Of a DNA stretch of 64,000 nucleotides, positions 1,533 to 64,000 are shown in pieces. Positions within the stretch are counted from its first letter, which is position 1. Each line of letters begins with the position of its first letter. The notes under the pieces were generated by a model that worked only from the letters and a program-made list of their open reading frames with translations, did not search any database and was not told the DNA's origin. A program made the position numbers and the translations under genes. Source of the DNA: Maritalea mobilis (GTDB lineage Bacteria; Pseudomonadota; Alphaproteobacteria; Rhodobacterales; Rhodobacteraceae); the NCBI RefSeq assembly GCF_019800885.1, contig NZ_JAHVKE010000006.1:1-64000 (forward strand). Direction: 5' to 3'.

Positions 1533-1644
1533 ACGGGTTCGGCGACACTCAAGCTCGCCGTGGGTGAGCGGCGTTCTAGGGGGTTCCTCGCGGGGTGTCC
1601 AGACCCTCCGGTGCGAAAAATCACAGCCGGAGCATTCGGCATTC

Positions 1645-1827: not shown

Positions 1828-1972
1828 GAATCCCTCCTCGGGCCTGGTCGTCGGCAGATCGGCGGCACTATGCCGAACGGGTCGCCCGGTCGCAACCGAA
1901 GGCTTGGCAATGCTTTACGCAAGGCGTTGGGGCCGGTTACGAAGGTTGGGGGTTAAGTAGGGAGAGGCACGG

Positions 1973-3238: not shown

Positions 3239-3241
3239 GCC

Positions 3242-4872: not shown

Positions 4873-4874
4873 CG

Positions 4875-5093: not shown

Positions 5094-5160
5094 GATCACT
5101 CCTTTGTTTGCGCACCTCGCGGTGCAGATGCGCGGTAAATGCGCCTGATGCGCCCGTTTT

Positions 5161-7512: not shown

Positions 7513-7518
7513 GATCCG

Positions 7519-7995
7519 TCAGCCCCCGAAATGCAGGACGCAAATCAGAGTGAAAAGCCGGCGCGACGTGTCGACATCGACCTCGGCCTTGTTCTCCAAC
7601 CGCTCTTGCAGGATGCGCGCGCCCTCGTTGTGGATGCCGCGCCGGGCCATGTCGATGGCCTCGATCTGGCCGGGCGGCAGCTTTTTCACCGCGTCATAGT
7701 AGCTTTCGCAGATCTGCCAGTAATCCTTGACCACCTGCCGGAAGGGCGACAGCGACAGGTGAAATTCGGCTGCATCCTGCCCATCCTCGGTATCGACGTC
7801 GAAGACCAGGCGCTTTTCGCGGATTGAAAGGGTCAAACGATAAGGGCCTTCCGGCACCGCCCGTTCGTCGCGCGCGGGAAGTCCGAAGGTGTTTTCTTCC
7901 AGAAGGTCGAAAATCGCGACCTTGCGCTCCTGCTCGATCTCGGGCGTGGGCGCGGGCATTCCCGCGGTATCAATCTCGATATGGCAGATGCTCAT
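7519..7995 (-). CDS. UPF0262 family protein
   Basis: A 158-residue alphaproteobacterial protein of unknown function, recognised by its opening (MSICHIEID), internal RDERAVPEGPYRLTLSI block and its constant place between hisD and the phosphatase gene. There is no signal peptide or membrane segment, so it is probably cytoplasmic. The region EGPYRLTLSIREKRLVFD is the most conserved-looking part. It starts 34 bp after the hisD stop and is likely co-transcribed with it. Confidence 0.88.
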   Translation of the reverse strand: MSICHIEIDTAGMPAPTPEIEQERKVAIFDLLEENTFGLPARDERAVPEGPYRLTLSIREKRLVFDVDTEDGQDAAEFHLSLSPFRQVVKDYWQICESYYDAVKKLPPGQIEAIDMARRGIHNEGARILQERLENKAEVDVDTSRRLFTLICVLHFGG

Positions 7996-8029
7996 CTTCG
8001 ACCTCCCCGCCCCTGTCTGCGCCGCATCG

Positions 8030-9334
8030 TCATTCCTGGTTCAACCGATCGAGCCGTGCGCGCACCGATAGGCCATGTGCCTCCAGGCTTTCGGAGATTG
8101 CCAGTGTTTCGGCGGCAGGTCCAATCGCGCGCAAGCCCGCTGGCGTCATCCTGGCCAAGGTCGATCGCTTCATGAAATCCAGCACCGACAGCCCGGACGA
8201 GAACCGGGCCGAGCGTGCGGTGGGCAGAACGTGGTTGGGGCCGCCGATGTAGTCGCCGATGGCCTCCGGCGTCCATTGCCCAAGGAAGATCGCGCCGGCA
8301 TGGGTGATCTTGTCGAGCAAACCCTCGGTATCGGCGACGCACAGTTCCAGGTGCTCGGGAGCGACGCGGTTCGACAGTTCCGCCGCTTCGGTCAGATCAC
8401 GCGTGGTGATGACCGCGCCGTAATCCCGCCAGCTGGGCCCGGCGATGTGGCGGCGTTCCAAGGTCTCAAGCCGCTTTTCGACAGCTTCGGCAACCGCCTG
8501 CCCGAAGGCCGCGTCGTCCGTCACCAGGATGGATTGCGCGACCTCGTCATGTTCGGCCTGGCTGAGCAGGTCCAAGGCAACCCAATCCGGATCATTGTCC
8601 CGATCCGCGATCACGAGGATCTCGGACGGCCCGGCGATCATGTCGATCCCGACCTTGCCGAAAACGCGCCGCTTGGCCGCCGCGACGAAGGCGTTGCCGG
8701 GGCCGGTGATCTTGTCCACCGGAGTGATTGTTTCGGTCCCGTAAGCCATGGCGGCCACGGCCTGCGCCCCCCCGATCCGATAGATCGTATCGACGCCCGA
8801 GAGTTTCGCGGCCAGCAGAACCAGCGGGTTGGCCTTTCCGTCCGGCGTCGGTGCGCAGATCACCAGTCTTTTCACGCCTGCCACCTGCGCCGGGATCGCG
8901 TTCATCAGGACCGAGGACGGGTAACTCGCCAGCCCGCCGGGCACGTAAAGTCCCGCTGCCTCGACCGCCGACCAGCGCCAGCCAAGCTCGGCGCCATCGG
9001 GATCTGTCCAGCGCGCATCATCTGGCCGTTGGCGGGCATGGTAGGCGCGGATGCGCTCGGCGGCGAGTTCAAGCGCCTTGCGCTCTTCTTCGGGAACGAC
9101 GGCAATCGCGGCCTCGATCTCCTCGGCCGAAAACGCGAGGGTGGAGGGCGTCAGCTGCAAACGGTCGAATTTCTCGGTCAACTCGATCACAGCCTTATCG
9201 CCGCGCGTGCGGACGTCGGCAATGATACCCGCCACGATATCATCCACCTCGGGGGCATCTTCGCGCTTCATGTTCAAGAGCGCCGAGAATCGCGCCTCGA
9301 AATCGGCGTCGCTGGTGTCGAGGAACTGGGGCAT
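8030..9334 (-). CDS. hisD: Histidinol dehydrogenase
   Basis: A 434-residue zinc enzyme catalysing the last two oxidations of histidine biosynthesis, L-histidinol to L-histidine with 2 NAD+. Family landmarks are YVPGGLASYPSS, ITGPGNAFV, DMIAGPSEILVIAD with the following DLLSQAEHDE zinc and substrate region, the catalytic NRVAPEHLE (Glu-His) and YIGGPNHVLPT. Length is standard. The ATG follows AAGGAG. It heads the minus-strand run leading to infA and is divergent from the cytochrome c gene. Confidence 0.97.
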   Translation of the reverse strand: MPQFLDTSDADFEARFSALLNMKREDAPEVDDIVAGIIADVRTRGDKAVIELTEKFDRLQLTPSTLAFSAEEIEAAIAVVPEEERKALELAAERIRAYHARQRPDDARWTDPDGAELGWRWSAVEAAGLYVPGGLASYPSSVLMNAIPAQVAGVKRLVICAPTPDGKANPLVLLAAKLSGVDTIYRIGGAQAVAAMAYGTETITPVDKITGPGNAFVAAAKRRVFGKVGIDMIAGPSEILVIADRDNDPDWVALDLLSQAEHDEVAQSILVTDDAAFGQAVAEAVEKRLETLERRHIAGPSWRDYGAVITTRDLTEAAELSNRVAPEHLELCVADTEGLLDKITHAGAIFLGQWTPEAIGDYIGGPNHVLPTARSARFSSGLSVLDFMKRSTLARMTPAGLRAIGPAAETLAISESLEAHGLSVRARLDRLNQE

Positions 9335-50688: not shown

Positions 50689-51102
50689 ACTGATGTCCTC
50701 TTTAACTGAAGGTGTATAGGCTACCTATAACGGTTTTCATGTACAACTCATTGGCAACGTTCCGTTGGCCCTTGGCTTCGGGATCAATAGCCAAATAGAT
50801 GACCGCTACCCCAAGGCCCTCCTCTGGGACATCGACTTCGTGGTAACTGTCATCCATTGGCCATTAGCCCCAAAGCCAAATTCCTAGAGACTTTTCACAC
50901 TTTCCTTGAATCGAAGAGGCGACCATCCGCGCAGGATGTCAAAACTCTGAAAAGCGATGCAAAAACCTGTACACAGGTGTTGCGCGACCGCCTATTTGGA
51001 AGGCCGCATTGCTTGCCGAACCTTGCACTGCAATCATCGCAGCATAACTGATGGCGGCTGTTGACCGCGCGCAAATTGACCAGTGAAGGATCGACCTCTC
51101 CG
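50689..51102. other. Intergenic region before manC
   Basis: About 410 bp of mixed composition between divergent genes. A possible ORF at 50857-51051 has no recognisable domain and no ribosome site. No clear repeat or RNA gene is seen; the region should contain promoters for both directions. Confidence 0.5.
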
Positions 51103-52527
51103 ATGCCGATTTATCCCGTTCTTCTCGCCGGTGGATCCGGCACCCGGCTTTGGCCCCTGTCGCGAAAGTCTTATCCGAAGCAGTTCTCGAAGTTCATGGG
51201 CGAGTACAGCCTGTTCCAGAGCTCGGCACAACGGCTGTCGGGGGATCTTTTCACGGCACCGGTCGTGGTGACTGGTGATCCGTTCCGCTTCATTGTAACC
51301 GAACAGTTGGCGGCGATCCGGCAAGCGCCGCAAGCCGTGTTGATCGAACCATCGGCACGCAATACCGCACCCGCGATCGCCGCGGCGGCACTGCTGCTTG
51401 AGGCCCAGGACCCGGATGCCGTGATGCTGATCGCACCGTCAGATCACGTGATCCCCGACACCGAGTCGTTCCGCGCAGCCGTCGAGGCCGCACTTCCTGC
51501 CGCGGCTGAGGGGAACATCGTCACATTTGGCATCGCTCCGACCCGCGCCGAAACGGGCTACGGCTACCTGGAACTGGCGGAGAGCGCGAAAGCCTCGGCA
51601 GCAACTCCACAACGTCTTGCGCGCTTCGTCGAGAAACCGAACGTCGAACAAGCCGCCTCGATGCTGGCCGATGGTGGTTTTCTCTGGAACGCTGGAATCT
51701 TCCTGGCTTCTGCCGCTACGTTGCGGGACGCTTACGACGCACACGCCCCCAAGGTCCTGTCAGACACCAAAGCGGCGCTGGACGCGGCCACGACCGACCT
51801 GGGGTTCACCCGCCTCGACCCGGCCGCATGGGATGCACTGGACGACGTGTCCATCGACTACGCCATAATGGAGAAGGCCGCGAACCTCGCTGTCATGCCC
51901 TATACCGGGAAATGGTCCGACCTCGGCAGTTGGGATGCCGTTTGGCAGGAAAGCGCCAGGGACACGAGCGGAACGGCCGTCAGCGAAGGGTCGATCGCCA
52001 TCGACTGCAAAGACACTCTTCTGCGGGCCGAAGCGGACGGCCAGTGCATTATCGGCGTTGGCCTTGATGACATCGTCGCCATCGCCATGCCTGACGCCGT
52101 GCTGATCACTCGCAAGTCGGAAGCGCAGCGCACTAAGGATGCCGTTGCCGCCTTGCGCGAGGCAAAGGTACATCAGGCCGACAGCTTTCCGGTTGATCAT
52201 CGGCCTTGGGGAAGCTTCGAAAGTCTCGTCCAGGGTGCTCGATTCCAAGTGAAAAGGATCGTTGTGAAACCCGGCGCCGCCCTGTCGCTGCAATCACACC
52301 ACCATCGTGCCGAGCATTGGATTATCGTGGAGGGAACCGCACGCGTGACGGTAGACGACAACATCACGATGGTCAGCGAGAACCAGTCTGTCTATGTCCC
52401 ACTTGGGGCGGTCCACCGGCTGGAGAACCCCGGCAAACTCGATCTCGTCCTGATCGAAGTACAAACGGGCAGTTACCTCGGCGAGGATGACATCATCCGG
52501 TACGAGGATTTTTACGCCCGCTGTTAG
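51103..52527 (+). CDS. manC: Mannose-1-phosphate guanylyltransferase / mannose-6-phosphate isomerase
   Basis: A 474-residue type-II bifunctional enzyme. The N-terminal domain makes GDP-mannose (pyrophosphorylase signature YPVLLAGGSGTRLWPLSR; FVEKPNVEQA; WNAGIFL). The C-terminal cupin domain isomerises fructose-6-P to mannose-6-P (HHHRAEHWIIVEGTARV with metal His; GAVHRLENPGKLDLVLIEVQ). The start MPIYPVLLA at 51103 gives the family length. It supplies GDP-mannose or derived GDP-sugars to the glycan island. An IS5-type remnant begins at its stop codon. Confidence 0.96.
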   Translation: MPIYPVLLAGGSGTRLWPLSRKSYPKQFSKFMGEYSLFQSSAQRLSGDLFTAPVVVTGDPFRFIVTEQLAAIRQAPQAVLIEPSARNTAPAIAAAALLLEAQDPDAVMLIAPSDHVIPDTESFRAAVEAALPAAAEGNIVTFGIAPTRAETGYGYLELAESAKASAATPQRLARFVEKPNVEQAASMLADGGFLWNAGIFLASAATLRDAYDAHAPKVLSDTKAALDAATTDLGFTRLDPAAWDALDDVSIDYAIMEKAANLAVMPYTGKWSDLGSWDAVWQESARDTSGTAVSEGSIAIDCKDTLLRAEADGQCIIGVGLDDIVAIAMPDAVLITRKSEAQRTKDAVAALREAKVHQADSFPVDHRPWGSFESLVQGARFQVKRIVVKPGAALSLQSHHHRAEHWIIVEGTARVTVDDNITMVSENQSVYVPLGAVHRLENPGKLDLVLIEVQTGSYLGEDDIIRYEDFYARC

Positions 52528-52870
52528 GGTCAGCGATCACATCGGCGCGCGAGCGCTGCTGAGCAGCTTGCCAGAGGTCGACTGGCTGCTCGGGGTTCTT
52601 GGATATGACGCCGCCTGGTTCAGAGAAGCGTTGCAGGACAAAGGGATACGTCCCTGCATCCCAGGCGGTAAGCAACGCAAGACGACTGTGAGATACGATA
52701 AGCGTCGATACAAACGGCGCAGTCGCATCAAGATCATGTTCGGCAGGCTCAAGGACTGGCGCAGTGTGGCAACCCGGTACGATCGTTGCCCCAAGGTCTT
52801 CCTGTCAGCAATCGCACTTGCTGCCCTGGTCATCTACTGGGCTTGAAGCTCAACGGGTCCAGACCCTATA
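52528..52870 (+). pseudogene. IS5-family transposase 3' remnant
   Basis: The last ~105 codons of an IS5-group transposase: SDHIGARALLSSLP, GYDAAWFREALQDKGIRPC, KRRYKRRSRIKIMFGRLKDW and RYDRCPKVFLSAIALAAL are its well-known C-terminal blocks, ending at TGA 52844-52846. A terminal-inverted-repeat-like GGGTCCAGACCCTATA follows (52855-52870). The 5' part and the left end are missing. The remnant starts exactly where manC ends. Confidence 0.88.
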
Positions 52871-53037: not shown

Positions 53038-54024
53038 TCAGTACTGCCATGTCAATCCTGCCGGATCCCCCGTTGCGACGATATGGTAGAGCGCGGCCTC
53101 ACCGGTCATGGCTGGATAGGCGGTGTGATCGAGGTCTTCGGGCACACTCATCGTGTCTCCGGGGGCCAATGTGGCCTCGCCAGCCGGATAGAGATCGGTC
53201 CCGTCCCAAACCACGCGCCAATGGCCCTTGACCGGCATCAGGACCGAGGGGCGGTCATGGCGATGCATGGTTTTGGTCGAGGACGCCCGTGTCAGCAGGC
53301 CGACCTCAAAGCCGGGCTTGTCCCGAAGGATGCCGTTTTCGCCGATGACCAGAACCGGCTTGCGGTCGGCCATTGCCACCAGATCAAGGTAGCGTGCCAC
53401 GTAGCCGGGGATGACCTCCCGCGTCGTCGGCTCGGGGAAGGCCTTGAGGTCTTCGTCCGAGAGGACCGGCATCAGTCCGACTCCATCAGGCAGGCTCTGT
53501 CCCTTCTTCGTATCGTAGAGCTTGCCCTCCTCCGACAGGACGAGGCCATGATCGCGCGCGTCCTCGATCACCTGCGGGGCCCAGATCACGCCACCCCCGG
53601 CATCGTCGCCGCCAAGGATCGCCATGATCATCCCGTAGTCTTCACCGATATTCTCGAAGCCGCGGAAAATACCGGTTGGAATGTTGAAGATGTCGCCCGG
53701 TTCCAGCACGACCTCGCCCGCGTCGCCCCAACGCCCCCAGAAGAACCGCCAACGGCCCGACAGGACGAAGAACACCTCGGCCGTGCGATGCGAATGCAGG
53801 CTGTTGCGGCATTTTGGGGGCTGGCCCGCCGCCCCGATGTTGAAGCCATGCGGGATGGTGATGTGAACATGCTGGTCCGCCGCCTCGGAGACGCCTCCGC
53901 CGATGATGGTGAAGTTCTCCTTCTGGTCGCTGCCGGGCGTATGCGCATCGATGAAGGCGGTGCGGCACGGCCGCAGATCGCCGTAACGGACGATGCGGGC
54001 TTCCATTTCGGGCGGGGTCATCAT
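53038..54024 (-). CDS. Bicupin protein (quercetinase-like)
   Basis: A 328-residue protein with two cupin barrels. The first (~40-150) has the metal-type motif NSLHSHRTAEVFFVLSGRW and GDIFNIPTGIFRGFEN. The second (~230-325) has TMHRHDRPSVLMPVKGHW and GDTMSVPEDLDHTAYP. Metal ligands (His-x-His, His) appear in both, so a dioxygenase or isomerase activity is possible. No signal peptide is seen. The start is one of two adjacent ATGs (54024/54021) after AGGAAGA. It is the last gene of the LacI-controlled minus-strand operon. Confidence 0.82.
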   Translation of the reverse strand: MMTPPEMEARIVRYGDLRPCRTAFIDAHTPGSDQKENFTIIGGGVSEAADQHVHITIPHGFNIGAAGQPPKCRNSLHSHRTAEVFFVLSGRWRFFWGRWGDAGEVVLEPGDIFNIPTGIFRGFENIGEDYGMIMAILGGDDAGGGVIWAPQVIEDARDHGLVLSEEGKLYDTKKGQSLPDGVGLMPVLSDEDLKAFPEPTTREVIPGYVARYLDLVAMADRKPVLVIGENGILRDKPGFEVGLLTRASSTKTMHRHDRPSVLMPVKGHWRVVWDGTDLYPAGEATLAPGDTMSVPEDLDHTAYPAMTGEAALYHIVATGDPAGLTWQY

Positions 54025-54058
54025 CGGGTCTTCCTGATTGGGCGATGGGGCGCGCTCG

Positions 54059-55051
54059 TCACTCGTCGGCGCCAGCGTAAAGGAGGATCTGCTTCCAGAT
54101 CGCGGTTTCATCGTAAAGCGTGTAGTCGCGGCGCAGCGTCGGCTCGGTGGTGCCAAGCGTGCCGAATTCCGCATGGGTGATGCCCAGCACGTAGACGGGC
54201 GCGCCGGTCGGGGCGCCGAACGCGCCCCAGCCTTCGTGTTTGCCCCAGAGGCTCCAGCGGACGGCGGCGCGGGGGGGCATGGTCGGGTCTTCGCGGCCGA
54301 TCTGGTGCTCGATCGTGAACGCCGCGTTGGGAAAGGCCGCGCGCAGGCCCATCCAGAACCAGTCGGCCGCCTCGATGCCATGCGCGGTCAGGCCGCCGGG
54401 GTATTCGAGATGGCAGGCGCGGTCATAGACCTGCGGGATCGCGCGCAGATCGGCGGACATGATACGGGTCAGCAGATCCGACAGGCGCTGGCCCCACTCG
54501 TTGTCGTTGCCCTTGCCGACATACGGCCCGGGCCGGTCCGTTTCCGGCGTCAGCGGCTTCGTGCAACTCAGCGGCCCGCCTTCCTTCGCGATCAGGTCAC
54601 GGGCATAGTCCCGCGGCTCCCACCCCAGTTGGCGGACGATGGCGCCCTGGTCGCGGATCAGCCATTCGTCGTCGATCATGTTGTCGCGCGCATGACAGTC
54701 CGCGAGGATGCGATAGCCCAGCTGCGCGCCCGTCGCCGTGCCGTAGACACCATCCCCCGAATGGGTCGCCTGGCTGAAGATCCGGTGCGAGGACAGCATC
54801 CCGTCCTCAGGGTCGCCGGACCAGATCACGTCCTCGCCCAGAAGGGTGCGGTCCGGAAACTCGGCCAAGGTCGCCATCGTGGCGGCAATCACGCCCTGGT
54901 TGCCGGTGACGACCGAGGACGGGGACCGGACCACGATATCCGGCGCATAGTAGTCATGCAGGGTCGAGATCCCGCGATCCTCCCAGATCTCCTTGGTGAT
55001 CCCGATGATGTAATGGGGAAAGTCGCGGAACTTGGGGTCAAAGCCCTTCAT
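54059..55051 (-). CDS. SnoaL/NTF2-like protein (two domains) A
   Basis: A 330-residue protein made of two NTF2-like halves: EIWEDRGISTLHDYYAPDIVVRSP in the first and ADLRAIPQVYDRACHLEYPGG in the second. SnoaL-type folds cyclise or hydrate reactive intermediates, but this family is mostly uncharacterised. The start MKGFDPKF at 55051 overlaps the lacI stop by 4 bp, so the two are coupled. It differs from the other two SnoaL proteins of the locus and may act at another step. Confidence 0.82.
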   Translation of the reverse strand: MKGFDPKFRDFPHYIIGITKEIWEDRGISTLHDYYAPDIVVRSPSSVVTGNQGVIAATMATLAEFPDRTLLGEDVIWSGDPEDGMLSSHRIFSQATHSGDGVYGTATGAQLGYRILADCHARDNMIDDEWLIRDQGAIVRQLGWEPRDYARDLIAKEGGPLSCTKPLTPETDRPGPYVGKGNDNEWGQRLSDLLTRIMSADLRAIPQVYDRACHLEYPGGLTAHGIEAADWFWMGLRAAFPNAAFTIEHQIGREDPTMPPRAAVRWSLWGKHEGWGAFGAPTGAPVYVLGITHAEFGTLGTTEPTLRRDYTLYDETAIWKQILLYAGADE

Positions 55052-56067
55052 CTTGTCCATCCTTCCGGTATGCGCGCCGAGCCGCGCACGATCAGCGGCC
55101 CCGCGATCTCGATTTTCTCGGGCAGCCGGTCGGGGTCCTCGATCTGTCCCAGAACCGTGTCCACCGTCGCCTCGACCATGCGGTTGATCGGCTGGCGCAA
55201 GGTCGTCAGATCATAGGCCGGCCAAGCGGCCATCGGCACGTCATCGTAACCCACGACCGAAACATCACCCGGCACCGACAGGCCCAGTTCGCCGCGCAGC
55301 ACGTCCATCACCGCGAAAGCCATGTGGTCGTTGCCGACGAAAATGGCATCGGGCCGCGCGTCTTGCGCCATGATCGTGCGCGCGGCCTCGGCGGCGGCGT
55401 CTCGCGCATACATCCCGTCGATGGTGGCCACCGGCGTCACACCCGCCTCGGCCAGGCGCGCGACGAACCCCTCGGTCCGGTCGCGCCCGGTCGACGAGCC
55501 TTGCCAACCCGCGATATGGGCGATCCTCTGGTGCGCACCGGCAAGCAGGAACTCCGCCACCTTGGCCCCGCCCTCGCGATTGGCCGAGGTGATCGCGCTG
55601 AAGCCCGAACCATCCTGCCCCCGGTTGAACATCACGACCGGAATACCGAGCGCCGCACAGCGTTCGGTCAGGTCGGAGGTCATCGCGACCGAGGCCGTGA
55701 TGATCCCGTCGACCTGGTAGGCCATCAGGTCCTGGATCACCTGTTCGACACCCTCGGCCGAATTCTCGGCCATCATCAGCAGGATGTGGTAGCCCCGCTC
55801 TTGCAGCGCCGCCCCCAATCGCTCGATCGCAGCCGGGTAGAACTGGTTGTCGAGATAGGCCACGACCAGGCCGATGATCCGGCTTTTGCCGGTGATCATG
55901 GCGCGGGCCAGCGAATTGGGACGGTAGCCAAGCTGCGCCGCCGCCGCGCGCACCTTGGCAATCGTCGACTTCGACGCCGACGCGCCCGAAAAAACCCGGC
56001 TGACCGCCGACTGGCTGACGCCAGCCAGCCGCGCCACGTCGATTGATGTCACCTTCGCGTCGGTCAT
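55048..56067 (-). CDS. LacI-family transcriptional regulator
   Basis: A 339-residue repressor. The N-terminal HTH reads SIDVARLAGVSQSAVSRVFSG and the hinge helix follows at YRPNSLARAMITGKS. The rest is a periplasmic-binding-protein-like sugar sensor (IIGLVVAYLDNQFYPAAIERL; PDAIFVGNDHMAFAVMDVL; VVGYDDVPMAAW). The start MTDAKVTS at 56067 overlaps the stop of the preceding SnoaL gene by 4 bp, so the regulator lies inside the operon it probably controls. Matching palindromes are at 58182-58199 and 58307-58322. Confidence 0.95.
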   Translation of the reverse strand: MTDAKVTSIDVARLAGVSQSAVSRVFSGASASKSTIAKVRAAAAQLGYRPNSLARAMITGKSRIIGLVVAYLDNQFYPAAIERLGAALQERGYHILLMMAENSAEGVEQVIQDLMAYQVDGIITASVAMTSDLTERCAALGIPVVMFNRGQDGSGFSAITSANREGGAKVAEFLLAGAHQRIAHIAGWQGSSTGRDRTEGFVARLAEAGVTPVATIDGMYARDAAAEAARTIMAQDARPDAIFVGNDHMAFAVMDVLRGELGLSVPGDVSVVGYDDVPMAAWPAYDLTTLRQPINRMVEATVDTVLGQIEDPDRLPEKIEIAGPLIVRGSARIPEGWTR

Positions 56068-57113
56068 CCGGCCCCCTCGGCCATTGGGTCGGGTATGGTG
56101 ACGGGGCCGATATTGCGGGCCTTGTTGAATTCGGCCAGCCGCCCCAGAACGTCGACCCCGACCTGCCGATAAAGATCGAGCAGATCGACGAGCACCCAGT
56201 TCTCGCGGATCAGCCCCCCCTCCAGCCGCCAGAAATCGAGGCTGCGCAGCAAAACCTCCCCGTGGCTGGGAGGCAATCCCATCCAGCCGCCGCCGGTCAG
56301 GGTGAGGCGCATGTTGGGCCACCCGGTTTCGGCCACCACATCGCCCTCGGCGATCCAGTGCGACATCAGATCCCCCATCGCGTCGAGCTTGCGGTCGGGC
56401 ATGGCGCGCAGGAACGGGATCTGGTGCCAATGCCGGAACCCGGCAATCCCGCGCCCGGTGCCGATCCCGGCGGGGCCGTACCAGTTGAACCGAGGGTGCC
56501 AGTAGCGATCGAGGTTCATAACCTCGGGGCTGCCTTCCGAGGGGTAGCGACACAAATCGGTCAGCATGGCGATGACATGGTCCAAGGCCGCCTGCCCTTC
56601 GCCCGACAGGTGCAGGCCGTCCCCGCTCATCGGGGCGGGGGTACACAGGAACGCCCCCAGTTGCGGCGCCATCGGCCAGGCGCGCGCCTGCATCATCAGT
56701 TCGGGAATATCCCAGATCGCCTGCATCTCGGTGACCCGGCCATCCTCGATCCGGAAGAACTCGTGATAGCGCATGTGAGCAAGGTGCCCGGTCGGCGGAA
56801 TGTCAAGGAACGGGGCAAGGAACGTGCCCATGTAGGTGCCCATGCACCCGACCCAGCCTTGCCCCTCTGGCGTCGTGCCCGCGACAACGATCATGTCGCG
56901 CCGTTCGAGGTCGGGCATGGCCTGCAACAAGGGCGCATAGGCCGTGTCGAAAAGAGCCTCTGGCCCGATAAGGTCGCCGAACGGATGACACAGATGCAAC
57001 GTGGCATCGGGCGCAACCACTTCACCAAGGGCCGCACGCATCCCGTCGGGTGTCGCGGTTTCAGCCGCCTTGCGAAACGGCGCGAGCGTGTCTTTCAGGC
57101 GATGCGCCTCCAT
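56064..57113 (-). CDS. SnoaL/NTF2-like protein (two domains) B
   Basis: A 349-residue protein with two NTF2-like halves (DATLHLCHPFGDLIGPEALFD and WHPRFNWYGPAGIGTGRGIAG). Its C terminus (RENWVLVDLLDLYRQVGVDVLGRLAE) is clearly paralogous to that of protein C at 61658-62677. The start MEAHRLKDT at 57113 is 4 bp after the ATPase stop. It is possibly an ester cyclase-like or lactonising enzyme, but no activity is proven for relatives. It lies between importer ATPase and regulator. Confidence 0.82.
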   Translation of the reverse strand: MEAHRLKDTLAPFRKAAETATPDGMRAALGEVVAPDATLHLCHPFGDLIGPEALFDTAYAPLLQAMPDLERRDMIVVAGTTPEGQGWVGCMGTYMGTFLAPFLDIPPTGHLAHMRYHEFFRIEDGRVTEMQAIWDIPELMMQARAWPMAPQLGAFLCTPAPMSGDGLHLSGEGQAALDHVIAMLTDLCRYPSEGSPEVMNLDRYWHPRFNWYGPAGIGTGRGIAGFRHWHQIPFLRAMPDRKLDAMGDLMSHWIAEGDVVAETGWPNMRLTLTGGGWMGLPPSHGEVLLRSLDFWRLEGGLIRENWVLVDLLDLYRQVGVDVLGRLAEFNKARNIGPVTIPDPMAEGAG

Positions 57114-57117
57114 CGGA

Positions 57118-58158
57118 TCAGACCCTTTCGCCCGTGTCGCCATCGAAGACATGGCAGATCGAGGCCGGGATATGCGCGCGGAACATGTCCCCGATCTCGG
57201 CCCGGAAATCCTTGGGGGCCTTGACCGAGACCAGCGCGCCGCCGATGCGCACGGTGACCATGGTGCTGTCGCCCAGCAGTTCGAGCGTGTAGATCGGCGC
57301 GTGGAGTTCCTCGCCCCCTTCGAGCGTCGCATCCTCGGCGCGGAACCCCAGCGTCACCTTGCCATCCGGCAGCGAAAAGCCGGGGATGTCCAGCCCCGCG
57401 CCGGTGAACACACCGCCCCGCATCTGCCCCTCGACCAGGTTCATGGCCGGGTTGCCGATGAAGCCTGCGACGAAGGTGTTCGCAGGCCGGTCGTAAATCT
57501 CGGTCGGGCTGCCCACCTGCTGAACCACGCCCTTGTTCATCACCACCACGCGGTCGGCCAGCGTCATCGCCTCGATCTGGTCATGGGTCACGTAAATCGT
57601 CGTGACCTGCAACTCGTGGCTGAGGTTCTTGATCTGCGCCCGGGTCGAGACGCGCAGTTTCGCGTCGAGGTTCGACAGAGGTTCGTCCATCAGGAACACG
57701 TTGGGCTGGCGCACGATGGCACGGGCCAAGGCAACCCGCTGCCGCTGACCGCCGGACAGTTCCGCCGGGCGGCGATGCAGGAAATCGGTCAGTTCCACCA
57801 TCTCGGCCGCGCGCATCACGCGATCCTTGTGCGTCGCAGGGTCAATCTTGCGCACCTTCAGGGGGAAGCGGATGTTCTCGTAAACGTCGAGATTGGGGTA
57901 GAGCGCGTAGCTCTGGAACACCATCGCCACGTCGCGATCCTTGGGGTCGAGGTCGTTGACGCGCCGCCCGTCGATCAGGATGTCACCCTCGGTGATCTCT
58001 TCAAGTCCGGCGATCATCCGCATCGTTGTCGTCTTGCCGCATCCCGACGGGCCCAGCAGCACAAGGAATTCCCGATCGGGGATGGTGAGATCGAAGCGGT
58101 CGACGCCAACGAAATTGCCCCACCGCTTGGACAGATTGCGCAACTCGATCTCGGCCAT
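57118..58158 (-). CDS. ABC transporter ATP-binding protein (CUT1/UgpC-MalK type)
   Basis: A 346-residue ATPase of a carbohydrate-type importer. Walker A GPSGCGKTT, Q-loop VFQSYALYP, signature LSGGQRQR, Walker B VFLMDEPLSN and switch His in IYVTHDQIEAM are all present. The C-terminal ~110 residues form an OB-fold regulatory domain (KVTLGFRAEDATL). The start MAEIELRNL at 58158 follows GAGGGGG. It heads the minus-strand operon, while its binding protein and permeases are on the plus strand across the shared promoter region. Confidence 0.95.
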   Translation of the reverse strand: MAEIELRNLSKRWGNFVGVDRFDLTIPDREFLVLLGPSGCGKTTTMRMIAGLEEITEGDILIDGRRVNDLDPKDRDVAMVFQSYALYPNLDVYENIRFPLKVRKIDPATHKDRVMRAAEMVELTDFLHRRPAELSGGQRQRVALARAIVRQPNVFLMDEPLSNLDAKLRVSTRAQIKNLSHELQVTTIYVTHDQIEAMTLADRVVVMNKGVVQQVGSPTEIYDRPANTFVAGFIGNPAMNLVEGQMRGGVFTGAGLDIPGFSLPDGKVTLGFRAEDATLEGGEELHAPIYTLELLGDSTMVTVRIGGALVSVKAPKDFRAEIGDMFRAHIPASICHVFDGDTGERV

Positions 58159-58181
58159 GGCAGCCCCCTCGCCCAAGGCGT

Positions 58182-58199
58182 AGTGCATACGAATGCACT
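58182..58199. promoter_or_regulatory. LacI-type operator (ATPase side)
   Basis: The 18-bp inverted repeat AGTGCATACGAATGCACT has a central CG and a single mismatched pair, the classic even-symmetry LacI-family operator layout. It lies 24 bp upstream of the ATPase start codon. Confidence 0.75.
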
Positions 58200-58306
58200 C
58201 ACGCTATCGCCGATTCTGGAAAGCACGCAAGCCATATTTGAAAGACGTTTACGAAAGAGCGCTTCCGAGAAAAAAGCTTGCCCGACCCGTGAACCATGCC
58301 CCAATG

Positions 58307-58322
58307 TTGCACACGTATGCAA
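58307..58322. promoter_or_regulatory. LacI-type operator (binding-protein side)
   Basis: TTGCACACGTATGCAA (16 bp, central CG, one mismatched pair) shares the core TGCA-ACG-TGCA pattern with the site at 58182-58199. It lies 101 bp before the start of the solute-binding protein gene, so the two sites flank the divergent promoters. Confidence 0.75.
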
Positions 58323-58422
58323 GTCACAACTCGATTCGCGATTGCGGCTCGTGACACTTTAAACACGACAAGGCCGGTTGCGCCCCGCAAACCGCGCCGA
58401 CCATTCCAGGGAGCCTTGTGCC

Positions 58423-59661
58423 ATGATCTTCACCAGACTGACGGCCATCACCCTCGCCGCGACCGCGATCGGCGGCGGCGCCGCGTTGGCCGATTGCGGC
58501 ATCGACAGCGGTCGCGTCGCGATCCTGTCCAATGACTTTCCCGCCTTGCAGGCCATGGCCGCCGGCGCCGCCGAATGTGCCAGCGACACGGTCGAGGTCT
58601 CGGCGAACCAGACGACCGAACATCGCGACATCCAGGTTGCCGCCCTGACCGCCGATCCGGCGCAGTACACCAGCGCGGTCGTCGCAAACTCCTCCATCGT
58701 GCCGCTGCTGAACGACGGTCTGATCCGCCCGCTCGACGACCTGATCGCCGAACACGCGCCTGACCTGCCCGGCCTCAACCGCATCACCATCGACGGCGAG
58801 GTGATGGCCATCGCCTTCATGGCCAATGCCCAGCACCTTTACGTGCGGACCGACATCCTCGAACAGGTCGGCGCCGAGGTGCCCACCACCTACGAAGAGG
58901 TGCTCGAGGTGCTGGCCGCTGTGCGCGAGGCCGGGATCATGGACCACCCCTGGGCGATGAACACCGCTTCGGGCTGGAACCTCGGCGAGGAATTCGTGAA
59001 CATGATGATCGGCATGGGCGGCAGCCTGTTCGAGCCCGGCAGCGCCGAGCCGGCGGTCAATTCCGAGGAAGGCATCGCCGCGCTGGAGATGCTGGCGGCG
59101 CTGAACGACTATGCCAACCCCGATTTCCTGACCTTCGACAGCAACGCCACGCAGGCCCTGTGGGAGTCGGGCGAGCTGGCGATCGCCTACATGTGGGGCT
59201 CGCGCGGGGGTGGCATCCTCGATGACGAGGGCGCTGCCGAGGGCGTGGTTGAAAACACGCTTCTGGTTGCGGCCCCGACCGTTGGCGGTGGTGACACGCC
59301 CGCCTCGACCCTCTGGTGGGACGGGTTCACCATTGCCGCCAACATCTCGGACGAAGATGCCGAGGCCACCTTCATCGCGCTGATGAACGGACTGCGCCCC
59401 GAGATCGTCGAAGCCAATAACGATGCTGCGGTCTGGCTGCTGGAGGGCTACACGCCCGGCGCACCTGCCGCTGGCGTTTCGGCCACGGCCGAGGCCGGGG
59501 CCACCCCCTACCCGATGCTGCCCTATGCCGGCCTGATGCATACCGCGCTTGGCAACGAGCTTGCGCAATTCCTGCAAGGCGAAGAAAGCGCCGAGCAGGC
59601 GCTGGCCGATGTCGAGGCCGCCTATATCGCCGCCGCGCGCGAACAGGGTTTCCTCGACTGA
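58423..59661 (+). CDS. ABC transporter solute-binding protein (family 1)
   Basis: A 412-residue periplasmic protein. A signal peptide is evident (MIFTRLTAITLAATAIGGG, then AALADC, cleavage near 22). The binding-protein fold shows AQHLYVRTDILEQVGAEVPTTYEE, typical of extracellular solute-binding family 1, and LWWDGFTIAANISDEDAEA. GGGAG precedes the ATG at 58423. The ligand is unknown; CUT1 relatives bind oligosaccharides, glycerophosphodiesters or polyols. A hairpin separates it from the permease genes, as is common for binding proteins made in excess. Confidence 0.93.
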   Translation: MIFTRLTAITLAATAIGGGAALADCGIDSGRVAILSNDFPALQAMAAGAAECASDTVEVSANQTTEHRDIQVAALTADPAQYTSAVVANSSIVPLLNDGLIRPLDDLIAEHAPDLPGLNRITIDGEVMAIAFMANAQHLYVRTDILEQVGAEVPTTYEEVLEVLAAVREAGIMDHPWAMNTASGWNLGEEFVNMMIGMGGSLFEPGSAEPAVNSEEGIAALEMLAALNDYANPDFLTFDSNATQALWESGELAIAYMWGSRGGGILDDEGAAEGVVENTLLVAAPTVGGGDTPASTLWWDGFTIAANISDEDAEATFIALMNGLRPEIVEANNDAAVWLLEGYTPGAPAAGVSATAEAGATPYPMLPYAGLMHTALGNELAQFLQGEESAEQALADVEAAYIAAAREQGFLD

Positions 59662-59675
59662 CACAAAGTCAAACG

Positions 59676-59701
59676 GCGGGGCGGTCCGAACGCCGCCCCG
59701 C
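59676..59701 (+). terminator. Hairpin between binding-protein and permease genes
   Basis: GCGGGGCGG (59676-59684) pairs with CCGCCCCGC (59693-59701), 9 bp with an 8-nt loop, 14 bp after the stop. Such structures commonly raise binding-protein mRNA relative to permease mRNA by blocking 3' decay or by partial termination. Confidence 0.65.
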
Positions 59702-59746
59702 AATCCCCCTCGCCCCGTCCCCATCCGCGCCGACGCGAGGCCGCAC

Positions 59747-60775
59747 ATGCCCCACCGCACCTTCTTCTGGTTCATCCTTCCGTCGCTGACCGCGATGATC
59801 CTTTTCATCGCGCTGCCCATCGTGTCGGTCGTGATCCAGTCGTTGCATGTCGAACACGAGCAGGTTCTGGAGGTTGTCGAAACCTGCGGCCCCTTCGGCT
59901 GCACCGAGGAAACCCGCGTCGACACCGAGGCTACCCGCGCCCTGCGCGAGGCCGAACCCCTTGGGCGGTTCAATGGCCTGGGCACCTATGTCAACCGGGC
60001 GCATCTGGCGACCGAGGAACTGGCCACCGCCTGGGCCGAAAGCGACACGTGGGGCGCGTTCGGTGGCCGCGTGATGAACCTGCCCTTCTACAAGGCGCTG
60101 GCCTTCACGCTGGCCTACACCTTCCTGGTCACACCACTGGTGCTGGTCCTCGGGCTGGCCATCGCGCTTGGGGTCAACGGGTTGCCGCAACGCCTGCGCG
60201 GGGTGACGATCTTCTTCTCGCTCCTGCCGATGATCGTGACGCCCTTGATCGGGTCGCTGGTGCTGTTCTGGATGATCGACGCCGACGGGATCATCGGCGC
60301 GACCCTGCAACTGCTCTTCGACGATCCGGACCTGTCGCTCAAGGCCTCTCCGACCCTGACCTGGCTGACGCTGTTCGTATACGGTGTCTGGCACTCCGCC
60401 CCCTTCGCCTTCATCGTCTTCTACGCCGGTCTGCAAACCGTGCCCGAGGAAACGCTGGAAGCGGCCATGATCGACGGCGCCAGCCGGTGGGAGCGTGTGC
60501 GCTACGTCGTCATCCCGCACCTGATGCCGCTGGTCGTCTTCATCACACTGATCCAGCTGATGGACAATTTCCGCGTTTTCGAGCCCATCGTCGGCTTCCA
60601 GGCGCAGGCCAGCGCCACGTCGCTCAGCTACATCATCTATTCCGACCTGCGGGGCGACACGCAGCAATTCGGCTCGGCCGCCGCTACCTCGGTTCTGACG
60701 ATCCTTGGCGTGGCGATCCTGCTGACGCCGGTGCTGATCCGCACCTGGCGCGACTTCAACCGCAAGAGGGTCTGA
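59747..60775 (+). CDS. ABC transporter permease 1 (MalF-like)
   Basis: A 342-residue inner-membrane permease. The first membrane helix is at ~5-30 (FWFILPSLTAMILFIALPI), followed by a periplasmic loop with two cysteines (ETCGPFGCTEE, perhaps a disulfide) and five more helices. The EAA coupling loop reads ETLEAAMIDGASRWERVRYVVIPH. The start MPHRTFFWF at 59747 is chosen because the longer frame overlaps the upstream gene. The unusually long loop between helices 1 and 2 (~100 residues) resembles MalF-type proteins. Confidence 0.92.
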   Translation: MPHRTFFWFILPSLTAMILFIALPIVSVVIQSLHVEHEQVLEVVETCGPFGCTEETRVDTEATRALREAEPLGRFNGLGTYVNRAHLATEELATAWAESDTWGAFGGRVMNLPFYKALAFTLAYTFLVTPLVLVLGLAIALGVNGLPQRLRGVTIFFSLLPMIVTPLIGSLVLFWMIDADGIIGATLQLLFDDPDLSLKASPTLTWLTLFVYGVWHSAPFAFIVFYAGLQTVPEETLEAAMIDGASRWERVRYVVIPHLMPLVVFITLIQLMDNFRVFEPIVGFQAQASATSLSYIIYSDLRGDTQQFGSAAATSVLTILGVAILLTPVLIRTWRDFNRKRV

Positions 60776-60779
60776 GACC

Positions 60780-61661
60780 ATGGCAGCCGCCGCGCATCGC
60801 AAATCCACGGGTCTGATCGTGCTCTCCACGGGTTTCGTGATCCTGTGGCTGATCCTGGCCGCCTTTCCCTTCCTCTGGACGCTCTGGGGCTCGTTCAAGG
60901 TGCAGGGCGACTTCTTTTCCCGCGCGGACTGGATGAACGCCATTCGCGGCCCCCTGACGCTGGAGGAAACCGGGGCGCGCTTCACCGGGCAGGGCTACTG
61001 GGGCGCGTGGATCGAGTCCGGCTTCTGGCGCAACGTGCTCAATACCGGCATTGTCGTCATGGCGACGGTCGTGATCTCGCTGACACTGGGAACGCTCGGG
61101 GGCTACGCGCTGGCGCGGTCGGGTTACCGCTATGCCTTCTGGCTGTTGATGATCGCGCTGGTCTTCCGCGCCATGCCGCATATCACGCTGGTCTCGGGCT
61201 ACCTGCTGCCGTTTTTCGAATGGAACCTCTGGGGGCACCTGCCGACCACGATCATCGTGCTGGTCGCGATCAACCAGCCCTTCACGCTGTGGATGCTGCA
61301 TTCTTTCTTCCTGAACATCCCCAAGGACCTGGACGAAAGCGCGATGGTCGATGGCTGCACCCGGTTCCAGTCCTTCCGACTGGTCATCATGCCGGTGATG
61401 TGGCCCGGCGTCATCACGACGGGCCTGTTCAGCTTCCTGCTCGCCTATAACGATTTCGCCGTCACCGCGATGCTGCTCAGCCAGGAGAACCAGACCATGG
61501 TGCCGCGCATCGCATCCTTCCTCGGCTCCACCCAACAAGAGGGCAATGTCATGTTCGCCGTCGCCGCTGTGGTCTCGGCCACCGCGCCCCTGTTCGTGCT
61601 GATCCTGTTCTTCCAGCGCCAGATCGTCAGCGGCCTGACCGCCGGGGCGGTGAAGGGATGA
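60780..61661 (+). CDS. ABC transporter permease 2 (MalG-like)
   Basis: A 293-residue inner-membrane permease with six helices. The EAA loop is DLDESAMVDGCTRFQSFRLV, followed by IMPVMWPGVITTGLFSF. Only 4 bp separate it from permease 1, and its stop overlaps the start of the downstream SnoaL gene by 4 bp. AGAGGG lies before the ATG. Together with permease 1, the solute-binding protein and the divergent ATPase it completes a CUT1-type importer. Confidence 0.93.
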   Translation: MAAAAHRKSTGLIVLSTGFVILWLILAAFPFLWTLWGSFKVQGDFFSRADWMNAIRGPLTLEETGARFTGQGYWGAWIESGFWRNVLNTGIVVMATVVISLTLGTLGGYALARSGYRYAFWLLMIALVFRAMPHITLVSGYLLPFFEWNLWGHLPTTIIVLVAINQPFTLWMLHSFFLNIPKDLDESAMVDGCTRFQSFRLVIMPVMWPGVITTGLFSFLLAYNDFAVTAMLLSQENQTMVPRIASFLGSTQQEGNVMFAVAAVVSATAPLFVLILFFQRQIVSGLTAGAVKG

Positions 61662-62677
61662 GGGACGACGTGACCATCGGGCTCCAGGCCGAAAAGCAAC
61701 TGGTCCGCGACCACTACGCGGCGCTGTCGCAAGCCACGCCCGACACCGTGGCAGAGGTACTGGCGGAACGCACCGCTCCGGACTGGCACTGGCGCGGCAT
61801 GCACCCGTTCCACGACCAGACCGGTGCCGAGGCGGTGGCACGCTTCTTCTGGAGGCCGCTTTTGTCCTCCATCAACCGCATTCAACGGCGCGAGGATATC
61901 TTCTTCGCGGGCCTGAACGAGATGGATGGATTCCAAGGCCGCTGGGTCGTGTCGATGGGCCACATGATGGGCCTTTTCGATGCGCCGTGGCTTGGCATCC
62001 GCCCCACCCGCAAGATCGTCATGCTGCGCTATTGCGAGTTCAACCGGATCGAACAGGGCAAGATCGCCGAAACCGCCTGTTTCTGCGACATCCCCCATCT
62101 GATGGCGCAAGCGGTACAAGACCCGTTCGGCCCCGCCACCGCCGCCCACCTCGTCCAACCGGGGCCGATGGGCCATGGCGGCCTGCTCTACGAGGGGCAA
62201 CCGCCCGAGCAGGGGGCCGCGACGCTGGCCGCGATCAACGCGATGATCGGCGATCTGGGCACCTGGGGCCTTGGCCTGCCGCTGGAAGAGGAACTGGCAC
62301 GCACATGGGCCGATGACATGATCTGGTGGGGACCGCATGGCGTGGGCGCGACCTTCACGATCGAACGCTATGCCAAGCAGCATTCCGGCCCGTTCCGCGC
62401 GGGGTTCACCGACCGGGCCAAAACGAAACACCTCGCGCGATTGGCCGAGGGTCATTTCGGCGGCTTCTTCGGCTGGCCGAATTTCACGGCGCGGCCCACC
62501 GGCGGGTTCATGGGGCTTCCAGCCACGGACCGGCTGGCCGAGTTTCGGGTGATCGACATCTACCGCCGCGACGGGGACAAGCTGGCCGAGAACTGGGTGT
62601 TCATCGACATGCTGCACATGATGAAGACGCAAGGCGTCGATGTGCTGGACCGTATGGCGAGGATCTCGGGCACCTGA
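61658..62677 (+). CDS. SnoaL/NTF2-like protein (two domains) C
   Basis: A 339-residue protein paralogous to protein B at 56064-57113. The C-terminal ENWVFIDMLHMMKTQGVDVLDRM matches ENWVLVDLLDLYRQVGVDVLGRL there. The first half has HWRGMHPFHDQTGAEAVARFF and the second WWGPHGVGATFTIERYAKQ. It is coupled to the permease gene (ATGA overlap), tying its function to the imported substrate. It ends 1 bp from the convergent capA-like gene, with no room for a separate terminator. Confidence 0.85.
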   Translation: MRDDVTIGLQAEKQLVRDHYAALSQATPDTVAEVLAERTAPDWHWRGMHPFHDQTGAEAVARFFWRPLLSSINRIQRREDIFFAGLNEMDGFQGRWVVSMGHMMGLFDAPWLGIRPTRKIVMLRYCEFNRIEQGKIAETACFCDIPHLMAQAVQDPFGPATAAHLVQPGPMGHGGLLYEGQPPEQGAATLAAINAMIGDLGTWGLGLPLEEELARTWADDMIWWGPHGVGATFTIERYAKQHSGPFRAGFTDRAKTKHLARLAEGHFGGFFGWPNFTARPTGGFMGLPATDRLAEFRVIDIYRRDGDKLAENWVFIDMLHMMKTQGVDVLDRMARISGT

Positions 62678-62678
62678 G

Positions 62679-63875
62679 CTAGCGGGCGCAGGCCAGCTCC
62701 TCGGGCGAGATCACGCGCGCCTCGCCCAGAACGGCGCGCGCATGCGCGATGCTGGCGCCGCCCGTGGAGATCGTCGCGGCCGGCGCGACGACCACGCCCT
62801 GGCTGACATAACGCTCCCCGCGCGTCACGAGGGCCCGCGGCGGATGGGCCACGACGCGCCCCCGCCCGTCCCGCGCAAGGTCGAAGTAAAGGATCGCCCC
62901 CGTCCTTCGCGGCAAGGCCCATTGCGACGACAGGAAATTGCCCAGCGAATAGGCGACGAAGCCGCGCCGCCCGTCGCTGGCCACGATCTCTTCGATGGGT
63001 TGCAGCACATGGGGATGCGCACCGATGACGGCCGCCGCCCCCGCCTCGATCGCGGCGCGCGCCAGGCGCCTTTGCTGTCCATCCGGGCGGGCGCTGTATT
63101 CCTGCCCCCAATGCGGGGTGAGGAGGACCGCGTCGATGGCAGGGTCGGCGGCCAGCCCCCGGATCAGGGACGGCACCGAAGGCGAGGACCCGTAACACAT
63201 CAGCGCCTGGCCATTCGGGTTCGGCAGCCCGTTGACGCTGTAGGTACAGGCCAGGATGGCGACAGTGGCGCTGCCACCGGACATCGGCAGGCGAACGGTC
63301 GTATGCCACGGCCCGCCCGTTCCGCGCGCGCGGGTTCCCGTGCTGCGCAACCCGGCCCGCGCAAGGGCCTCAAGCGTGCGGTCCACCCCGAGCGGACCAC
63401 GATCGAGCGCGTGGTTGTTCGCGGTCTGCACCACGTCGACCCCGACGCGGTCGAGGACACCGGCAATCGAAGGGTGATAATTGAACTGCGGATAGCCCGT
63501 GTAGACCCGGTTGTCGAAGACGCTCCGCGGCGCCACGGGGGCTGCGCGACCGCCGGGCAGCACGCCCTCGGCAGCAGGTCCCTCCAGGTTCACGACGGTC
63601 AGATCGGCGCGCGAAAGATACGGGGCGACATGCGCAAAGGCTGGCGCAAACCCGTCTGGCCGCGCGGCGGCGTCTTCCTGGATCAGGCGGTGCAGAAGCA
63701 CATCACCGGTGGCCGCAACGGTCGCCGCCCCCGGTCGAAAGACGCCCAGATCGGCGGGACAGGACCCGCCGCTGCGCGCCACCACATCCGGTCCGCTCCC
63801 GCTTGGCACGCAGGCCGCGAGCGTCAGCGAACAAATGGGGATAAGTTTTCGGATCAGGTGAACCGCGCCCGACAA
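62679..63875 (-). CDS. CapA-family lipoprotein (metallophosphatase-like)
   Basis: A 398-residue protein of the CapA/PgsA family. The preferred start is a TTG at 63875 with AAAGG seven bases upstream, giving a lipoprotein signal HLIRKLIPICSLTLAAC with lipobox Cys at 22. Family blocks: VAATGDVLLHR, DLTVVNLEGP, VVQTANNHALDRG, LLTPHWGQEYS and IGAHPHVLQPIE, the metal-binding Asp/Asn/His sites of the calcineurin-like fold. Relatives take part in poly-gamma-glutamate or capsule synthesis, but many single copies have unknown roles. A DnaA-box-like 9-mer lies 36 bp upstream. Confidence 0.88.
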   Translation of the reverse strand: MSGAVHLIRKLIPICSLTLAACVPSGSGPDVVARSGGSCPADLGVFRPGAATVAATGDVLLHRLIQEDAAARPDGFAPAFAHVAPYLSRADLTVVNLEGPAAEGVLPGGRAAPVAPRSVFDNRVYTGYPQFNYHPSIAGVLDRVGVDVVQTANNHALDRGPLGVDRTLEALARAGLRSTGTRARGTGGPWHTTVRLPMSGGSATVAILACTYSVNGLPNPNGQALMCYGSSPSVPSLIRGLAADPAIDAVLLTPHWGQEYSARPDGQQRRLARAAIEAGAAAVIGAHPHVLQPIEEIVASDGRRGFVAYSLGNFLSSQWALPRRTGAILYFDLARDGRGRVVAHPPRALVTRGERYVSQGVVVAPAATISTGGASIAHARAVLGEARVISPEELACAR

Positions 63876-63910
63876 CCCATTGCCTTTCAATAATTCAAAC
63901 TGCGTATATC

Positions 63911-63919
63911 TGTGGATAA
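63911..63919 (-). promoter_or_regulatory. Consensus DnaA box
   Basis: TGTGGATAA on the plus strand, i.e. TTATCCACA on the minus strand, is the perfect 9-bp DnaA box. It is isolated in the visible sequence and may be chance or a DnaA-responsive promoter element of the capA-like gene. Confidence 0.35.
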
Positions 63920-64000
63920 CCTTTTCGCCGAGACGCGATCTGTCAACGCGGTCAAGCGGTCGGGCGCAGCCAATCCGTTGCAAATGTGACATCCCCGCAC

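Follow-up and report, generated by a model that had tools for sequence, protein, structure and literature searches.

We analysed 64,000 nucleotides of Maritalea mobilis DNA (contig NZ_JAHVKE010000006.1, positions 1 to 64,000, hereafter the window), in which a locus at 53038-62677 joins a sugar-type importer to enzymes that are not usual for sugar catabolism. All nine open reading frames (ORFs) that an earlier sequence-only reading had described there were recovered in the ORF list, and Pfam-type searches placed them in the same families. They are arranged in two divergent operons. The minus-strand operon encodes a UgpC/MalK-type ATPase, SnoaL B, a LacI-family regulator, SnoaL A and a bicupin, and the plus-strand operon an SBP_bac_1 binding protein, two BPD_transp_1 permeases and SnoaL C. 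The LacI gene thus adjoins a CUT1 importer that is complete, as had been claimed, with its binding protein, two permeases and ATPase. The features are as follows.

52487..52846, plus strand: fragment of a DDE transposase, some 190 bp past the cupin gene, a probable truncation point
53038..54024, minus strand: bicupin, N-terminal HxHxxxE kept, C-terminal domain poorly conserved
54059..55060, minus strand: SnoaL A, two NTF2-like domains (family search and predicted model), the marker of the cluster
55048..56067, minus strand: LacI-family regulator (family search), found in 79 of 80 related loci
56064..57113, minus strand: SnoaL B, two-domain (family search), paralogue of SnoaL C at 38% identity
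57118..58158, minus strand: ATPase of the importer, UgpC/MalK type; ORF open from 58188, but more likely starting at 58158
58184..58197, no strand: putative LacI operator 1, TGCATACGAATGCA (palindrome scan)
58308..58321, no strand: putative LacI operator 2, TGCACACGTATGCA (palindrome scan)
58423..59661, plus strand: CUT1 solute-binding protein (family search)
59747..60775, plus strand: CUT1 permease 1 (family search)
60780..61661, plus strand: CUT1 permease 2 (family search)
61658..62677, plus strand: SnoaL C, two-domain (family search), 62% identical to the Ruegeria orthologue

The genes are tightly packed, mostly with overlaps of 4 bp or gaps below 35 bp, as the sequence-only reading had it. 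Overlaps of 4 bp join LacI to SnoaL B and permease 2 to SnoaL C, and the LacI/SnoaL A overlap is 4 or 13 bp depending on the start chosen. Gaps of 4 bp separate SnoaL B from the ATPase and the two permeases from each other, and one of about 34 bp separates the cupin from SnoaL A; the gap between binding protein and permease 1 is about 85 bp. For the ATPase, the start at 58158 (MAEIEL) probably fits better than that at 58188, the Ruegeria orthologue beginning MAEIQL, and with this start the first palindrome (58184-58197) falls outside the gene. The locus is flanked by a protein of the mannose-1-phosphate guanylyltransferase/mannose-6-phosphate isomerase type (51061-52527) and a PGA_cap capsule-type protein (62679-63992), neither with an evident link to the genes described here.

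SnoaL A was used for an alignment scan of named genomes, which detected at least 507 stretches encoding relatives, and the best 80 of these were kept as loci. By title they are mostly Rhodobacterales, and since they include near relatives of one another the locus counts are not independent. Genes were called at an identity of at least 40% over at least 35% of the query length. Full-length loci, each longer than 20.9 kb, numbered 57, all with SnoaL A by construction, the loci having been chosen by it. The importer and its regulator were found in nearly all of them (LacI in 56, the ATPase in 52, the permeases in 52 and 52, the binding protein in 51), together with SnoaL B (51), the cupin (50), a one-domain SnoaL (46) and SnoaL C (39). 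The same loci contained further enzymes: a HisD-family dehydrogenase, hisD1 (54), a short-chain dehydrogenase/reductase, SDR (53), a MetE-like methyltransferase (50), an alpha/beta hydrolase (48) and an RraA-type aldolase (44). An S-adenosylmethionine-dependent methyltransferase was less frequent (16), and a second HisD gene, hisD2, and an amidase were rare (2 each). No other family occurred in more than 3 of the 80 loci, according to a crude clustering of the leftover longest ORFs that can miss genes.

In other Rhodobacterales the genes usually form one block that includes hisD, SDR, MetE-like, hydrolase and RraA genes. Compared with such a cluster on a Ruegeria plasmid, the nine window proteins were 43-77% identical. 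An earlier comparison of 20 genomes of the family gave broadly the same cluster with gaps, although L053 had little beyond SnoaL A and SDR. SnoaL A matches at E <= 1e-20 occurred in 91 of 198 family genomes, the window genome included, some of them distant. Since the grouping recurs in most of the 57 full-length homologous loci, it is not due to chance. The gene-order comparison suggested by the sequence-only reading thus came out in its favour, SnoaL, cupin, transporter and LacI genes travelling together in most of these loci. The observation is real and not an artefact, and the neighbourhood is part of a larger conserved gene set. Gene content across the loci establishes that the CUT1 importer, SnoaL, bicupin and LacI genes travel with hisD1 and SDR, and usually also with the MetE-like, hydrolase and RraA genes. 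A literature search of open-licence PubMed Central papers, with preprints outside its scope, found no description of the cluster, which is not proof of novelty; the earlier view that the set fits no described pathway holds within that literature.

Several loci had additional peculiarities. Locus L107, titled Nocardioides marinus (an actinobacterium), carried a Rhodobacterales-like cluster that closely resembles the Leisingera locus L114 in the order of its genes and in its identities, and it seems likely that the record is mislabelled or mixed. A gene of the M19 membrane-dipeptidase type lay between the cupin and MetE-like genes in L063 (11789-13009) and L167 (1599-2669). A GMC oxidoreductase occurred within the cluster, in or near the slot taken by hisD1 in other genera, in L072 (6500-8005), L166 (6528-8037) and L168 (5843-7319). 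The genomes of L166 and L168 still carry hisD1 with the palindrome elsewhere. Replacement of HisD1 by the GMC enzyme was therefore rejected as an explanation of L072-type loci, two congeners with the GMC gene keeping hisD1 elsewhere.

The intergenic region of the window locus holds two copies of a palindrome within one mismatch of TGCATACGTATGCA, namely TGCATACGAATGCA and TGCACACGTATGCA, with 124 bp from the start of one to that of the other. One further copy was found elsewhere in the window genome (contig 2, 889760, at most one mismatch to the consensus). It ends 44 bp before hisD1, a HisD-family gene for a protein of 441 residues that is followed by an SDR gene; the two proteins are 79% and 62% identical to those of the Ruegeria cluster. 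The window genome also has three weaker sites that differ from the consensus at two positions, and further ones with two mismatches to the pattern scanned first. A two-mismatch site inside an HpaI-like gene (C1:618341) was judged coincidental. In 5 of 5 genomes of the genus (our own and G198-G201) hisD1 lay apart from the importer cluster with the palindrome 43-65 bp upstream and SDR downstream, the latter matched in two pieces in G198. Another LacI-linked ABC (ATP-binding cassette) importer cluster apparently lies upstream of the hisD1-SDR pair, with one ORF of 229 residues between (L048, about 1060-8961, on contig 2 of our own genome). A separate HisD-family gene in the window (8045-9265, minus strand) is 40% identical to hisD1; since all five genomes compared within the genus have a similar second copy, it is probably the enzyme of histidine biosynthesis.

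In the related loci, TGCATACGTATGCA at up to two mismatches gave 105 sites in 61 of the 80, none inside a recognised cluster gene when sites within 60 bp of a gene edge were counted as outside. Two control patterns gave 4 and 0 matches in the same loci. Over 85 sequences there were 115 palindrome matches and 1 after one local shuffle. The palindrome was upstream of the ATPase in 52 of the 59 cases in which over 300 bp of upstream sequence was available, and where loci had two sites their spacing was 54-56 bp in 40 of 44. A conserved palindrome thus marks the promoters of importer and enzyme genes at the level of sequence. We infer that LacI binds it, and the nine genes would then belong to one putative LacI regulon. 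With hisD1 and SDR behind the same palindrome, the dehydrogenases of the pathway exist in trans. The sequence-only reading had stressed that no kinase, hydrolase, dehydrogenase or aldolase of a standard sugar pathway is present. This is true of the window locus, but it fails beyond it, where such genes are frequent (hisD in 54, SDR in 53, hydrolase in 48 and RraA in 44 of the 57) and where the hisD1-SDR pair was found in trans. The pathway is therefore not the work of SnoaL and cupin proteins alone.

Each of the three SnoaL proteins contains two SnoaL and two SnoaL_2 stretches in Pfam, in agreement with their description as two-domain proteins. SnoaL B and SnoaL C are clear paralogues, but they are not strictly at opposite ends of the locus, as had been claimed, since SnoaL B is the second gene of the minus-strand operon. 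SnoaL A reached the 1e-10 cut in no pairing with B or C. Its predicted model (mean pLDDT, predicted local distance difference test, 88) has two NTF2-like domains, and the top solved fold matches were Lsd19, MonBI-MonBII and IdmH, with 13-26% identity among the matches listed. The NTF2-like fold is common to SnoaL-like polyketide cyclases, epoxide hydrolases and ketosteroid isomerases. Unlike these, the proteins of the locus are tandem and belong to a catabolic gene set, with no polyketide genes in the locus.

In the N-terminal domain of the bicupin, H75, H77, E81 and R119 were identical in 11 of 11 aligned sequences from three phyla, the arginine standing at what we take to be the third histidine of the usual cupin motif. 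Cupin dioxygenases bind their metal through three histidines and one glutamate, or through three histidines. Such a site was not found, the third position being arginine in all 11 aligned sequences and the C-terminal histidines not being conserved. A three-histidine site in the second domain was rejected for the same reason (H252 in 26, H254 in 25 and H298 in only 37 of 71 sequences). An isomerase of the IolB/KduI type was also set aside as less likely, no such Pfam match appearing up to E 0.1. The predicted model (mean pLDDT 76, below 50 for residues 16-49) matched the oxalate decarboxylase and quercetinase bicupins, and at its moderate confidence these matches indicate only a bicupin. The bicupin label given earlier needs one qualification: the second domain had no reported Pfam cupin match in the window protein and is poorly conserved or missing across the family. 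In a sample of 299 genomes from the whole phylum, 15 had cupin matches at E <= 1e-25, the window genome among them.

HisD1 scored 390 bits against sulfopropanediol 3-dehydrogenase and at most 261 against histidinol dehydrogenases, and its closest solved relatives are HpsN and the (R)-2,3-dihydroxypropane-1-sulfonate (DHPS) dehydrogenase. The MetE-like relatives kept the strings HICWGN and SDCGFG in 69 of 69 sequences, which supply what we assume to be the MetE-type zinc ligands, His-x-Cys and a downstream Cys. The alpha/beta hydrolase resembled 3-oxoadipate enol-lactonase and, more weakly, the methyl esterase BioH, all far below curated cut-offs. The RraA relatives belong to the RraA-like Pfam family and share an acid-X20-R-D motif with the aldolases for 4-carboxy-4-hydroxy-2-oxoadipate and 4-hydroxy-4-methyl-2-oxoglutarate. 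They differ from these in the acid, presumably Asp as a rule and here Glu (E-X20-R-D in 60 of 60), and in having a single, weak solved match (3k4i).

Variant regions carrying an amidase, a second hisD or both were found in Pantoea, two Deinococcus, Alloyangia, Martelella, Roseibium, Novosphingobium and Priestia. They hold, in whole or in part, the cupin, the hydrolase, RraA or HpcH, SDR and at least one SnoaL, HpcH being an aldolase that replaces RraA. The two Deinococcus regions have a carbon-nitrogen hydrolase instead of the amidase, and the Priestia region shows only one hisD. The HisD proteins fall into two groups, HisD1 and HisD2, but the second one of Deinococcus (51% and 48%) and that of Priestia (40% and 46%) match neither group well. 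Among Rhodobacterales loci with amidase and hisD2, L116 has the MetE-like gene and L123 lacks it. Relatives of hisD2 on rhizobial and Aureimonas plasmids (L193, L195, L196) have a small cupin gene and an ABC transporter as neighbours, and in one case aminotransferase genes flank the arrangement. An Ensifer plasmid region has SnoaL A, importer, cupin and HpcH without hisD and SDR. It encodes a 3-oxo-tetronate kinase, OtnK (456 bits, curated cut-off 350), and a protein like the 3-oxo-tetronate-4-phosphate decarboxylase OtnC (241 bits, just below the cut-off of 250). It differs from the known OtnK/OtnC pathway in that no upstream tetronate dehydrogenase or isomerase is annotated, and among the regions compared only this one has the kinase and decarboxylase. 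Finally, in one region of a Vibrio pelagius plasmid (L041, 7508-17146), the only part of that genome searched, the importer is accompanied by nothing but four SnoaL genes; sarcosine oxidase and purU genes lie close by.

We suggest, with somewhat less than even confidence, that the window locus comprises the import half, together with some of the enzymes, of a conserved catabolic regulon under LacI control. Judging from the families, LacI would keep the two operons and hisD1-SDR repressed as long as neither the substrate nor a product is bound to it, and the importer would take up a small polyhydroxylated compound. The SnoaL proteins may begin with non-redox chemistry at a carbonyl/enol system (hydrolysis, elimination or isomerisation). 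The two-step oxidation of a primary alcohol to a carboxylate would fall to HisD1, and a secondary alcohol would be oxidised by the SDR. The cupin and the hydrolase would open the skeleton, and the aldolase, RraA or in variants HpcH, would release pyruvate and a second acid. The sequence-only reading had proposed that an unusual sugar or cyclic ester is taken up and then ring-opened, cyclised or isomerised by SnoaL and cupin enzymes. The importer and the SnoaL/cupin set, travelling with a LacI regulator, are supported and ring opening of some kind is plausible, but the proposal was too narrow, since dehydrogenases, a hydrolase and an aldolase usually belong to the gene set.

Speculatively, the likeliest substrate is a seven-carbon ring of the gadusol/mycosporine type. 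These compounds have a ring with a CH2OH group, an O-methyl group, a 1,3-dicarbonyl system and amino-acid substituents. The groups can be matched to the enzymes, the CH2OH to HisD1, the methoxy group to the MetE-like enzyme (or, as a methyl ester, to the hydrolase), the enolised 1,3-dicarbonyl to SnoaL and cupin, and the seven-carbon skeleton to the RraA/HpcH aldolase. The gene set might even be the route, missing so far, by which bacteria consume mycosporines and mycosporine-like amino acids, although we consider this unlikely. On this route SnoaL would hydrolyse the vinylogous amide C-N bonds, freeing the amino acids and leaving (4-deoxy)gadusol, and HisD1 would convert the ring CH2OH into COOH. 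Cleavage beside the methoxy carbon would yield an alpha-keto methyl ester to be opened by the hydrolase, unless the MetE-like enzyme had demethylated the ring before. Once the CH2OH was oxidised and the ring cleaved, 4-carboxy-4-hydroxy-2-oxoadipate would result; this is a known substrate of the RraA family and would be split by RraA or HpcH into pyruvate and oxaloacetate. The Ensifer-type variant (HpcH, OtnK and OtnC, no HisD) would turn gadusol into pyruvate and 3-oxo-tetronate, variants with hisD2 and amidase would process a glutaminol side chain, and the Vibrio region would be a version that only strips the ring of its substituents. A passage in one review reports that bacteria strip mycosporine-type compounds and does not name the genes (PMC3083659).

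Several observations weigh against this scheme. The SDR step has no clear place on the 4-deoxygadusol ring, and the arginine in place of the third metal histidine in the aligned cupins weakens a dioxygenase role. Some related loci contain few of the genes (e.g. L085, L101 and L053), and the GMC oxidoreductase inside the cluster of the congeners G199 and G201, which have hisD1 elsewhere, is left without explanation. None of the eight amidase/hisD2-type regions compared has an annotated MetE-like gene, so the argument from demethylation does not extend to every variant. A search of the window genome, run without a positive control, gave no MetE-like or RraA relative, an empty answer that on its own proves nothing, and the hydrolase match was partial at only 29%.

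Alternatively, the regulon may serve another polyhydroxylated compound, such as an O-methylated sugar or cyclitol or an aminocyclitol, on which the enzymes would act in the same formal order; we consider this possible, if rather doubtful. CUT1 importers and LacI regulators normally accompany carbohydrates, and the solved relatives of the binding protein, though weak, are mostly sugar binders. The locus resembles LacI-controlled CUT1 sugar and polyol operons in its regulator, in the palindromes of the divergent intergenic region, in the complete importer and in having further enzymes behind the same palindrome. An Amidohydro_2 protein flanking the Ruegeria cluster is weakly similar to L-fucono-1,5-lactonase (112 bits, cut-off 400), and an IlvD/Edd-like dehydratase was recognised by eye in 3 of 80 loci. 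However, the crude clustering placed no sugar-type enzyme family (kinase, isomerase, dehydratase or glycosidase) in more than 3 of the 80 loci, and the window locus has none. Where sugar operons have a kinase, a glycosidase or a sugar-acid dehydratase, this locus has SnoaL proteins, a bicupin and a HisD/HpsN-like dehydrogenase, with one enzyme operon in trans. The amidase and second hisD of the variants, in turn, would suggest an amide and an amino alcohol rather than a plain sugar.

The window copy itself is probably truncated, to judge by its nearest relative. This is G198 among the four congeners (94% identity in SnoaL A, 98% in permease 2), in which the MetE-like and alpha/beta hydrolase genes begin less than 0.5 kb after the cupin, whereas the window has the transposase fragment there. 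With the MetE-like and RraA relatives undetected and the hydrolase match partial, the pathway in the window genome is either incomplete or completed by other enzymes, e.g. the HpaI-like aldolases (37% and 30% matches, the latter with an internal stop). It could be argued from the same evidence that the window copy is a decaying remnant without a working pathway and that only its relatives use the regulon, which would be compatible with any substrate. We regard this as unlikely, as the nine ORFs, hisD1 and SDR are all open and the palindrome is kept at both sets.

Degradation of a sulfonate related to DHPS, with hisD1 as HpsN, is very improbable. The regulon shares with DHPS degradation a HisD-superfamily dehydrogenase, nearest among solved proteins to HpsN and the (R)-DHPS dehydrogenase, together with an SDR, and HpsN is accompanied by SDR partners. 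Unlike that system, it has a CUT1 importer and SnoaL, cupin and RraA genes, and we know of no role for SnoaL, cupin or aldolase in DHPS routes. Desulfonation enzymes were absent from the window locus (the rest of the genome was not searched for them), and since every other family in the clustering was confined to at most 3 of the 80 loci, none apparently travels with the cluster. An opine-like or Amadori compound, e.g. a sugar-glutamine conjugate from which the amidase would remove the amide while HisD enzymes oxidised the polyol ends, would suit the amidase variants on plasmids of leaf isolates (Pantoea, Priestia), the carbon-nitrogen hydrolase variant in a rhizosphere Deinococcus and the hisD2 relatives beside a small cupin and ABC transporter (once between aminotransferase genes), but is most improbable, as the loci are mostly Rhodobacterales, only 2 of the 57 have amidase or hisD2, and the MetE-like and RraA steps are left unexplained.

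Through the recurring set of about 15 genes, several SnoaL families so far undefined can be placed, with a HisD branch and a bicupin, in one putative pathway. One genome survey took hpsN (K15509) as its marker of DHPS degradation (PMC8960797), and the HisD1 enzymes of this regulon resemble that marker. If the substrate is indeed a mycosporine, the fate of these widespread ultraviolet sunscreens would become traceable in genomes.

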